Assembly: GCA_012840225.1 (NCBI GenBank)
Contig: DULU01000084.1
Location: forward strand, 1-49,261
Direction: 5' to 3'
Source of the DNA: Bacillota bacterium
Lineage (GTDB): Bacteria > Bacillota > Limnochordia > DTU080
Length of the DNA: 49,261 bases
The notes under the pieces are model-generated. The model ran no database searches. It saw nothing but the letters and a program-made list of their open reading frames with translations, and had not been told where the DNA came from. How positions within the stretch are numbered: the stretch's first letter is position 1; each line of letters opens with the position of its first letter. This document shows, in pieces, positions 15,180 through 18,395 of the stretch. A program made the translations under genes and the position numbers.

Positions 15180-15206
15180 ACATCGGCAACGGCCGCAGAG
15201 ACTTTA
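15180..15206 (-). promoter_or_regulatory. Sigma-28 promoter of flagellin
   Basis: On the minus strand TAAA (15206-15203) is followed after exactly 15 bases by GCCGATGT (15187-15180). The consensus is TAAA-N15-GCCGATAA, so this matches all but one position. It points at the flagellin gene and fits the fliA gene in this window. Confidence 0.9.
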
Positions 15207-15432
15207 GGGGAGATACATCAATCAAAAAATATGTTGACGGCCTGGCCGAGCACCTACCAAAACGGCCACACCGCCACCGGTCAACCAACGCCGACCCGTT
15301 CTGCGCAATAACCAGGGCGAATGGCTATATGATCCGCAAAATCAGTGCCCCGGTCCGCAGGTGGAGCTGAATGAAGAGATGAAGCAGATGAAACAACAAT
15401 GGCACCAGAATGACTCCATGAAGTCAACCTGA
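15201..15432 (+). pseudogene. Possible decayed small gene between flagellin and satD
   Basis: Two plus-strand frames read like protein but are not joined. One (from about 15201) gives DTSIKKYVDGLAEHLPKRP. The other (15238-15432) gives LRNNQGEWLYDPQNQ, then a Glu/Lys/Gln-rich helix and a TGA stop. Neither has a start codon with a ribosome site. One frame change near 15270 would join them. The left edge overlaps the flagellin promoter. I do not recognise the protein. Confidence 0.3.
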
Positions 15433-15438
15433 GGGAAA

Positions 15439-15485
15439 TTGACTATTATTAGTCAATACATATATAATTGACCCGAAACAGTCAA
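15439..15485 (+). promoter_or_regulatory. Sigma-A promoter with two TTGAC-N8-GTCAA operators (satD operon)
   Basis: TTGACT (15439-15444) and TATAAT (15463-15468) are spaced 18 bases apart, a near-ideal sigma-A promoter. Two palindromes of the same design cover it. TTGAC-N8-GTCAA at 15439-15456 includes the -35 box, and its arms extend to 8 bp (ATTGACTA/TAGTCAAT). A second TTGAC-N8-GTCAA at 15468-15485 begins at the end of the -10 box. The pairing suggests a dimeric repressor. The satD product itself ends in a helix-turn-helix, so self-control is a fair guess. Confidence 0.75.
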
Positions 15486-15524
15486 GTGGCATAAACCTTC
15501 TCCAGGAAGTGTGGTCGACCGGCG

Positions 15525-16235
15525 ATGGCGGAGGAAAAAAGATACTTGGCCGTAATCGGCGATATGGTGGGCTCCCGGCAACTGGCGGACCGGGCTTTGT
15601 GGCAAAACCGTCTCGAGGAGCTGATGCGGGAGCTGAATGCCGTCTGCTATAGGTGCATCGCCGCCGGGGCCGTGCTGACGCTGGGCGATGAATTCCAGGT
15701 TCTGCTCCACAGCGCAGCTTGCCTGCCGGAGATCCTGGCCCTTCTCGACAGCCGGATGTCGGCGGAAAGGATAAAAATCCGCTTGGGGCTGGGAATTGGT
15801 CCCCTCAGCACTGCTTTGAAACCTTTGGCCGTCGGCATGGACGGTCCGGCTTTCCACCTGGCCCGCCGGTCCATCGACCGGCTGAAGAAAGAGGGCGGCT
15901 CGCTATATGTGCATACCGGCGACCAAACAGCCGATACGCTGTGGAATGCCCTGGCCAGGCTGCGCGATGTCATCCGTGAGGACTGGACGACCCGCCAGCG
16001 GCAGATTTACCAAACCTTTCAGGCGCTACGCCTCACGGCGCAAGCGGATGATCTGACGCTGGAGGAAAATAGCTGCCGGGTGGCCAAATCCGGCAGTCAA
16101 AAGGAATTGGCCGCCCAAATGGGAATCACTCCCTCAGGGGTCAGCAAAGCGTTCACCCGGATGCACCTGGACGCCCTGATGCAAGCGGAGGCCGCCCTGG
16201 TCGTCGGTCTGGAGCACCGGCTGAGCTGCCCATAA
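15525..16235 (+). CDS. satD: SatD-family protein with C-terminal helix-turn-helix
   Basis: 236 residues. The N-terminus (YLAVIGDMVGSRQLADR) and the GAVLTLGDEFQVLL and RLGLGIGPLSTAL segments are typical of the SatD family, first named from an acid-tolerance operon of Streptococcus. The biochemical function is not established. Overall fold hints (GDMVGSR and GDEFQ) recall nucleotidyl-cyclase-like domains; this is my inference. The last 50 residues contain a clear helix-turn-helix (KELAAQMGITPSGVSKAF), so it may bind DNA. ATG 15525 has only a distant AGGAAG. It is the first gene after the palindromic promoter, followed 37 bases later by a DUF3307-like membrane gene, a pairing I believe is recurrent. 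Confidence 0.85.
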   Translation: MAEEKRYLAVIGDMVGSRQLADRALWQNRLEELMRELNAVCYRCIAAGAVLTLGDEFQVLLHSAACLPEILALLDSRMSAERIKIRLGLGIGPLSTALKPLAVGMDGPAFHLARRSIDRLKKEGGSLYVHTGDQTADTLWNALARLRDVIREDWTTRQRQIYQTFQALRLTAQADDLTLEENSCRVAKSGSQKELAAQMGITPSGVSKAFTRMHLDALMQAEAALVVGLEHRLSCP

Positions 16236-16272
16236 CCCCCACTGCCCCCGTAAGTCAAGGAGGTGAGGCGCC

Positions 16273-17124
16273 GTGCCTTTAGCCGTACCGGATTTTGCCG
16301 GAGGCCTTTTCCTGACTTGGTGCCTAGGTCATTATCTGGCCTTCAAGACCGGCATCCCGGCCGTTTACGGAGCAGCGGTACGCCTGGCGGGGGCGGCTCT
16401 GATCATGCTGATCTGGCCGGCCGGCCTGCCGCCAATCATATATGCCGTGCTTTGGGCCGGCGCGGCGGCGCTGATCGATCATCTCACCTTGAGAAAAACA
16501 CCGGCAACGGCGCCGGCGCTAACAACGCTAACAATAACATATGCCTTGCACATCAGCGCGGCCGCTTTGCTCTTCTTTGCCAGCTCCGGTTCCGCCTCCG
16601 CTGCTCCTGTCTGGCCAAGGACGAGCTATCAGCTTTTCGGTTTGCCGGTGGGCCCGCTGCTCGCCACCGTCGGCTTGCTGATCCTCGCCACCCATCCGGC
16701 CAACCACCTGGTCCGCAGCGTGCTGCAGAGCGCTTTGGGGGGCAAAACCCTGGCTCAGGCGGAGCTTCTGGCCGCCGCCTCTTCAGCCCGTTCAGCCGCC
16801 GCTGCCATCTCCATCTCGGCGGCCACCTCTGCCGCCGCCGCAACCGCCGCCTCCGCAGAAGAGAGTCCCACCAAACCACACCAGACCGTCAGATACATCG
16901 ACCTGCAGATGGGACGGGTAATCGGCTCTCTGGAAAGACTGCTGATCATCATCCTGGTGATCAACGGCTCATATGAAGCTTTAGCCTTTGCCGTGGGCGT
17001 GAAAAGCCTGGTGCGCTACCCGCGCCTGAGCGAGCCGCACTTCGCCGAATACTTCCTGGTAGGCACGCTCACCAGCGCATTGGTTGGTGTGGCTTTGGGC
17101 TTGACTATAAAGCTGATCTGGTAG
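16273..17124 (+). CDS. DUF3307-like integral membrane protein
   Basis: 283 residues with about six hydrophobic segments. The C-terminal 70 residues carry the family pattern MGRVIGSLERLLIIILV, then VKSLVRYPRLSEPHFAEYF and LVGTLTSALVGVALGL, matching the C-terminus of DUF3307 proteins. The middle (about 170-200) is an Ala/Ser-rich insert. The start is GTG 16273 with AAGGAGG 10 bases upstream, which excludes the other overlapping frame. The function is unknown; its place directly after satD suggests the two act together, perhaps a membrane sensor or effector with a soluble partner. Confidence 0.75.
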   Translation: MPLAVPDFAGGLFLTWCLGHYLAFKTGIPAVYGAAVRLAGAALIMLIWPAGLPPIIYAVLWAGAAALIDHLTLRKTPATAPALTTLTITYALHISAAALLFFASSGSASAAPVWPRTSYQLFGLPVGPLLATVGLLILATHPANHLVRSVLQSALGGKTLAQAELLAAASSARSAAAAISISAATSAAAATAASAEESPTKPHQTVRYIDLQMGRVIGSLERLLIIILVINGSYEALAFAVGVKSLVRYPRLSEPHFAEYFLVGTLTSALVGVALGLTIKLIW

Positions 17125-17159
17125 ATGCCGCCGGAAAGCTGGAGAAAAGGAGAGCACAT

Positions 17160-18395
17160 ATGCTGAACAAAGCCGATATAGCCATCATCCGCACCCTCGC
17201 TGCCGAAGTGGCCGAGATTGCCGCCCTGCCCGTGCAGGAAGAGAAAAAGAAGCTCTGGCGCGCCCTTAATGCGCTCCATCCTATACGGCCGATGGTGATG
17301 ATCGACCAGGTCTGCTGGAATGAGATGAACGTCGGCGATGAGCTGATCCTGCGCTGCCAGGATGAGGAGTGCCGGCGTTACGAAAACCGCCTGCGCCGCA
17401 TGCTCTTCCAGTGGCGTCATTTTCCTGTGGATATGGTGGTGGAGCCGTATATTCCGGTGCCGAAAGCAGTGCACAACTCCGGCTTCGGCATTACGGTGCA
17501 GGAAGAGACGGCCGTGACCGATCCGACGAGCGATATTATCGGTCATAAATACATAAATCAGTTCCGGAACGAGGACGACATAGAAAAAATTCAGATGCCG
17601 AAAATTTACCATGATGAAGAGGAAACCCGGCGGCGCCTGGCGGTGGCCCACGAGCTCTTCGACGGTCTGTTGGAAGTGAGAGCGGCCGGCGTGCAGCCTT
17701 ACCTGAGCCTGTGGGATCCGCTCGCCTCCTGGATGGGAGTCGAGGAAGCGCTTTATGCTATGATCGATAAACCGGATTTCCTCCACCGCATCCTCTTCCG
17801 CATGACGGAAGGCTATCTCGTCATGCTGGATCAGCTGGAGGAACAGGGTCTCCTATGTGAGCCGCAGCCGGTGATCCACTGCTCCGGTGCCTGGACCGAC
17901 GAGTTGCCGGCTCCCGGCTATAACCCGCAAAAGCCCCGCACGGTGGATATCTGGATGTATGGTATGGCCCAGATGCTGGCCACCGTTTCCCCGGCAGCCT
18001 TTAAAGAGTTCGAGGTGGATTACATCAGCCGCCTATGCTCCCGCTTCGGCCTGGTCTATTACGGCTGCTGCGACCCGCTGGACGGCAAGATGGCCGAAGT
18101 GCGGCTCATCCCCAATGTGCGCAAGGTGTCCATGAGCCCCTGGGCCAATGAGGAGCGGGGGGCGGAGGAGATAGGCCGCGCCTATGTCTACTCCCGCAAA
18201 CCCAACCCGGCATTGCTGGCCATGGACACCTTCGACATCGATCTGGTGCGCGCCGAGCTCACTAACACAAGGAAAGTGTGCGCCAAATACAATTGCCCCC
18301 TTGAGTTCATCCTGAAGGATATCAGCACGGTGCGCTATGAACCTGAACGCCTCTTCGCCTGGGCCAAAGTGGCCATGGAGGTAGTTTTAGAATAA
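17160..18395 (+). CDS. UroD-like (corrinoid-type) methyltransferase
   Basis: 411 residues of the uroporphyrinogen decarboxylase/MtaA/CmuA superfamily, most members of which in anaerobes move methyl groups between corrinoid proteins and a cofactor. The visible marks are QPYLSLWDPLASWMGVEEAL, IHCSGAWTDELPAPGY and YYGCCDPLDGKMAEV. The His-Cys and Cys-Cys sites could bind zinc as in MtaA. It is longer than classical UroD and does not look like a haem enzyme. ATG 17160 has AAGGAG 10 bases upstream and lies 35 bases after the membrane gene, so it probably shares the satD transcript. No corrinoid protein gene is adjacent; the QueG-like protein at the left edge is the only other cobalamin-type candidate in the window. 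Confidence 0.8.
   Translation: MLNKADIAIIRTLAAEVAEIAALPVQEEKKKLWRALNALHPIRPMVMIDQVCWNEMNVGDELILRCQDEECRRYENRLRRMLFQWRHFPVDMVVEPYIPVPKAVHNSGFGITVQEETAVTDPTSDIIGHKYINQFRNEDDIEKIQMPKIYHDEEETRRRLAVAHELFDGLLEVRAAGVQPYLSLWDPLASWMGVEEALYAMIDKPDFLHRILFRMTEGYLVMLDQLEEQGLLCEPQPVIHCSGAWTDELPAPGYNPQKPRTVDIWMYGMAQMLATVSPAAFKEFEVDYISRLCSRFGLVYYGCCDPLDGKMAEVRLIPNVRKVSMSPWANEERGAEEIGRAYVYSRKPNPALLAMDTFDIDLVRAELTNTRKVCAKYNCPLEFILKDISTVRYEPERLFAWAKVAMEVVLE

Follow-up and report, generated by a model that had tools for sequence, protein, structure and literature searches.

SatD, very probably a hitherto unstudied switch acting on its own gene and on that of a partner membrane protein, with tandem palindromes as its inferred operator

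The satD locus and its promoter

The window, meaning the whole stretch of DNA that was analysed (49,261 nucleotides; contig DULU01000084.1 of the Bacillota assembly GCA_012840225.1), belongs to a genome of 3.55 Mb in 154 contigs. It carries satD and, directly downstream, a gene for a membrane protein, referred to here as the partner. A predicted promoter and three predicted operator sites lie upstream of satD. The features are as follows.

15410 to 15427, no strand assigned: predicted operator site 1, ATGACTCCATGAAGTCAA, with one mismatch; the core TGACT-N6-AGTCA, like that of site 2, has none
15439 to 15456, no strand assigned: predicted operator site 2, TTGACTATTATTAGTCAA, of the form TTGAC-N8-GTCAA; it includes the -35 box and some of the spacer
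15439 to 15468, plus strand: predicted sigma-70-type promoter, TTGACT-18-TATAAT, scoring 11/12
15468 to 15485, no strand assigned: predicted operator site 3, TTGACCCGAAACAGTCAA, of the form TTGAC-N8-GTCAA; its first base is the final base of the -10 box
15525 to 16235, plus strand: satD, with a cyclase-like N-terminal domain (about residues 7-130) and a C-terminal helix-turn-helix (predicted recognition helix, residues 203-212)
16273 to 17124, plus strand: partner membrane protein gene, 37 bp after satD; its product aligns with the DUF3307-type partners of other satD loci

The original prediction had described two palindromes of the form TTGAC-N8-GTCAA, at 15439-15456 and 15468-15485, with the -35 box in the first and the second starting in the -10 box. 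Both palindromes are exact and 29 bp apart, and their placement agrees with TTGACT-18-TATAAT, which is the sole promoter-like (sigma-70-like) match within 15200-17200 and is overlapped by sites 2 and 3. The further claim of a two-site repressor operator needed amendment: a multi-site operator over the promoter is supported, but the sites number three, not two, and repression is inferred. The three sites stand in one register, with spacings of 29 and 29 bp, and sites 1 and 2 together score 20/20, which is a perfect paired palindrome. The window thus meets our criterion for a SatD-type array, namely at least two palindromes 28 or 29 bp apart upstream of satD or its partner.

At 15410-15432, site 1 and the final part of a short reading frame overlap; the apparent stop codon of this frame, TGA, is at 15430-15432. 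This frame looks like the remnant or the end of another gene.

Occurrence of the array in this and other genomes

The exact pattern TTGAC-N8-GTCAA was found three times in the whole 3.55-Mb genome, twice at the satD promoter and once within a coding sequence read as rlmH. When up to one mismatch was allowed, 38 sites were found genome-wide, compared with 52 for the reversed control pattern; three of the 38 fall at the satD promoter in 29-bp steps. Since the count lies below that of the control, there is no genome-wide excess, and a regulon of such sites in the window's own genome was ruled out.

The 47-bp tandem has no second location in its genome. When it was searched with at most one mismatch in a set of 399 Bacillota genomes, no other member had it, and none had the reversed control. 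With at most two mismatches, the sole match beyond the window's own genome among 73 genomes of the class was in another genus of the family. This match, TTGAC-N8-GGCAA followed at a 29-bp step by TTGAC-N8-GTAAA, lies directly upstream of a satD gene whose product is 45% (genome search) or 41% (alignment) identical to the window's SatD. Beyond the family, the letters TTGAC/GTCAA showed no conservation in the 73 class genomes or the 399 Bacillota genomes. One refuting condition of the original prediction, a lack of conserved palindromes upstream of satD in relatives, was thus not fulfilled; the feature that is kept is the 28/29-bp spacing, not the letters.

To assess the spacing, 79 satD loci spanning many phyla were collected, along with those of relatives in the class and in Bacillota, and 112 non-redundant satD loci were scored. 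A paired-palindrome score was used in which four 5-bp arms must match, with a threshold of at least 18 of 20. The control regions were rebuilt twice; the first set had been contaminated with windows overlapping the satD promoter and with partner promoters. Paired palindromes at 28/29 bp were present in 76/112 satD upstream regions versus 7/189 other upstream regions of the same loci, and none of the other spacing pairs tested was enriched (1-8 of the 112 satD upstream regions). A simpler repeat statistic concurred (44/112 versus 11/340 controls). About a third of the satD upstream regions had no array by the paired-palindrome score; some of these have an array elsewhere, and some, mostly in Bacillota, have no clear array.

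Tandem palindromes at 28 or 29 bp were seen in Bacteroidota, Verrucomicrobiota, Spirochaetes, Gammaproteobacteria, Calditrichota, Aminicenantes and Bacillota. Most often the repeated unit is NNAACC-N5-GGTTNN, a palindrome of 17 bp present in 2-5 copies; ATAAG-N7-CTTAT in Calditrichota and TTGAC-N8-GTCAA in the window are among the alternatives. The operator letters vary by clade, and the conserved feature is the 28/29-bp spacing.

A reverse test was run on 396 genomes of one phylum with the pattern AACC-N5-RGTT, 15-16 bases, AACY-N5-RGTT, in which satD was not used. Matches were obtained in 24/396 genomes, and in 15 of these 24 the match was at the satD gene; the remaining nine do not exceed the yield of the reversed control pattern (some twenty genomes). 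Among 41 satD-bearing genomes, 32 had tandem AACC-type matches, nearly all at satD, versus one genome for the control.

Tandem AACC-type matches away from satD were present in two genomes, which is about the chance level, and further SatD targets were not accepted on this basis. One of the matches (L175 near 1978; G074:C222:21877-21917) is an AACC-N5-GGTT-type array between two phoU-like genes, and is possibly a second SatD target or a product of chance. The other (L174 near 1980; G073:C11:174379-174419) lies among prophage-like and DNA-modification-like genes. As a separate observation, one genome (G389, five contigs; L157) has a repeated element, AACCCTTGTGGTTG...CAACCACAAGGGTT, in several of its contigs; satD was absent from the single repeat-element locus checked.

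SatD, its recognition helix and the partner protein

The SatD family takes its name from the satD gene in the sat operon (for secretion and acid tolerance) of Streptococcus mutans. The window's SatD falls in the Pfam SatD family (PF16264) with 89.3 bits against a curated cut-off of 29. The literature searched describes neither a molecular function nor DNA binding nor an operator for this family. The protein was modelled by AlphaFold2 with a pLDDT of 92.5. The C-terminal helix-turn-helix of the original prediction is borne out by this model, by matches of many family members to helix-turn-helix families in their C-terminal part, and by a weak sequence match.

No solved relative of the N-terminal domain was identified by sequence, where only the helix-turn-helix was matched, and weakly. 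By Foldseek, the modelled N-terminal domain was most similar to class III nucleotidyl cyclases (E 8.5e-6 to 1ybu), followed by Cas10 and GGDEF palm domains, and a nucleotidyl-cyclase-like fold is thus predicted. The family conserves IGD...S and GDE motifs; D13 is present in 90% or more of members and D55 is invariant. By analogy with cyclases, these two residues are candidate metal-binding aspartates at plausible places. Cyclases typically have a VNxAxR motif, in place of which SatD has FHxAR (F110-H111-x-A113-R114), so that the motif criterion was not met. Because His111 occupies the usual place of the catalytic Asn, SatD was not filed as a class III nucleotidyl cyclase and its activity is left open. 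Assignment to a defence system was also rejected, as the only PADLOC matches of SatD were weak and covered its helix-turn-helix, and the partner had no match.

The operator letters were then compared with the predicted recognition helix. When the third helix residue was Arg, G stood just outside AACC in 8/8 scored loci; without Arg at this position, G was the commonest outer base in 0/32 loci (Fisher p = 1.3e-8, uncorrected for relatedness). Both Arg and G were present at L160, an out-of-sample locus found only by its array, and agreement reached 44/44 when four spirochaete loci with half-sites called from covariation analysis were included. Lys at the same residue goes with C (5/5). On a tree built without the helix-turn-helix, Arg and G changed four times each, so no more than about four independent changes underlie the link; an independent-pairs test gave the same direction in every pair, with too few pairs for significance. 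A partial Mantel test of operator against helix, with N-terminal distance held constant, gave r = 0.39 and p = 0.0005. Judged from sequence covariation of this kind, the evidence points to SatD itself as the putative binder of the array, although binding is inferred. In the window, both the helix (TPSGVSKAFTR, residues 202-212) and the half-site (TTGAC, with N8) fall outside the Arg/G rule. Since this half-site differs from the common NNAACC-N5 form, the rule is no direct test of the window's SatD, for which the case is built on where the sites lie, how they are spaced and their conservation within the family.

A membrane protein of about 240-280 residues adjoins satD in 102/112 loci. DUF3307 (PF11750) was matched by 7 of 56 partner proteins, and all partners align in one strongly conserved C-terminal region; in the window's partner, the C-terminal third is conserved with satD partners of many phyla. 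A Pfam search with the window's partner gave no family, DUF3307 included, which stayed below the cut-off, and its fold had no match to solved structures. In about ten loci the array lies between satD and a separated downstream partner; palindrome or repeat arrays at 28/29 bp occupy this position in L009, L011, L020, L186, L187, L193, L196 and L200. Where the partner comes first (L087, L189, L203 and L204), array-like pairs, partly read by eye, precede the partner. Given that the array is placed with the partner in these separated and reversed gene orders, it seems to control the transcription unit that contains the partner.

Proposed function and comparison with known systems

Computation supplied the predicted fold and the gene pair, the operator-helix covariation, and the sites with their spacing, conservation and specificity. 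On this basis SatD is, very probably, a genetic switch that has escaped study and that governs its own gene and the partner's, its binding being inferred. The reading that we favour, with a probability of roughly 85%, is that the palindromes form a three-site SatD operator at which cooperative dimers repress the satD-partner unit and are released by a ligand; no binding, expression or ligand data are available. SatD would bind each palindrome by its C-terminal helix-turn-helix, probably as a dimer, and neighbouring dimers 29 bp apart, probably acting cooperatively, would cover the -35 box, the spacer and the -10 box, and would keep RNA polymerase off the promoter of both genes. The N-terminal domain, having the nucleotidyl-cyclase fold and conserving both candidate metal-binding aspartates, is probably a sensor, in which the binding or turnover of a nucleotide-like ligand may release the repressor. 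The dimers, their cooperativity, the ligand and repression rather than activation are inferences, as is the binding of SatD. A step of 29 bp corresponds to about 2.8 turns, so neighbouring dimers would not lie on one face of the DNA. This is unusual for simple cooperative pairs and counts against the proposed model.

The sign of the control bears on one alternative, that SatD binds the array but activates transcription, or activates and represses depending on its ligand. A sigma-70-like promoter accompanies 34 arrays. The array overlaps it in 23, a result that by itself does not prove repression, and misses the best promoter-like match in the other 11, which speaks for the alternative. In the window and its nearest relative, however, the sites cover the -35 box and the region around -10, a position typical of repression, and we regard activation as unlikely, though still worth keeping in mind.

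The arrangement of the two genes could also suggest a toxin-antitoxin-like pair, with SatD restraining a harmful membrane protein by repression or by direct contact. The loci do form a two-gene unit with autoregulatory palindromes, and the partner gene often overlaps satD by four bases (stop/start overlap). Moreover, satD scores essential in the Streptococcus pyogenes strains that have it, yet it is absent from about 29% of genomes (PMC11323703); this would be consistent with a harmful partner under restraint, though it is no more than a hint. SatD is nevertheless large and has a conserved enzyme-like sensor domain, and the partner, without likeness to solved structures and without a PADLOC match, leads only to families of unknown function or weak matches. 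This pairing is accordingly considered improbable.

That another, unlinked regulator binds the array, with SatD merely one of its targets, has in its favour the absence of direct binding data and the extra array between the two phoU-like genes of another genome (L175). Such a regulator would hardly account for an array that is essentially limited to satD or the partner in each genome, that stays with them across phyla in three gene orders, and whose letters shift together with SatD's own helix; we hold it to be very unlikely. The original prediction had left self-control and another regulator equally open. Of the two, self-control by SatD now has by far the stronger case, given that the array keeps to satD and its partner across phyla, covaries with the SatD helix and has no genome-wide counterpart, and it is untested at the bench. 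Finally, short motifs do arise randomly, and matches to a single palindrome with 2 mismatches are no commoner than expected when only the window is considered, but chance or an unrelated repeat can be set aside in view of the three copies in exact 29-bp register, their recurrence in another genus, and the enrichment across phyla at this spacing and no other.

SatD occurs in many phyla and is reported to be essential in some S. pyogenes strains, and it has no molecular function in the literature searched. The array offers it a testable role, that of a DNA-binding switch for which binding sites are predicted, a partner gene is identified and a nucleotide is the suspected ligand, and the combination of fixed spacing, changing letters and a helix/half-site link makes a natural data set for the coevolution of repressor and operator. 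A broader view, which is only tentative and may well not hold, is that SatD represents a widespread and so far unrecognised class of one-component regulators whose cyclase-like domain binds or makes a nucleotide signal and controls cooperative assembly of dimers at 28/29 bp, thereby switching a conserved membrane protein on or off, with a helix code in which Arg3 reads G.

As far as our searches go, the operator array, the predicted cyclase-like fold and the helix-operator link are new for the SatD family (PF16264), of which the window's protein is a member with the C-terminal helix-turn-helix matched in many others. The DUF3307 (PF11750) membrane proteins provide the family of a minority of satD partners, the window's partner itself standing outside it and having no solved relative by fold. 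The predicted SatD fold resembles class III cyclases (Rv1900c of Mycobacterium tuberculosis and Ma1120 of M. avium) and the GGDEF and Cas10 palm domains; unlike class III cyclases, SatD has a fused helix-turn-helix, and FHxAR replaces VNxAxR. Repressors that regulate their own gene through tandem palindromes on its promoter are a known general kind, and the satD locus shares with them a local helix-turn-helix regulator, repeated palindromes on its own promoter and a downstream partner in the same transcription unit. The SatD arrays differ from these systems in their fixed 28/29-bp step over many phyla with changing letters and 2-5 sites, and SatD differs in having a predicted nucleotidyl-cyclase-like domain as its presumed sensor.
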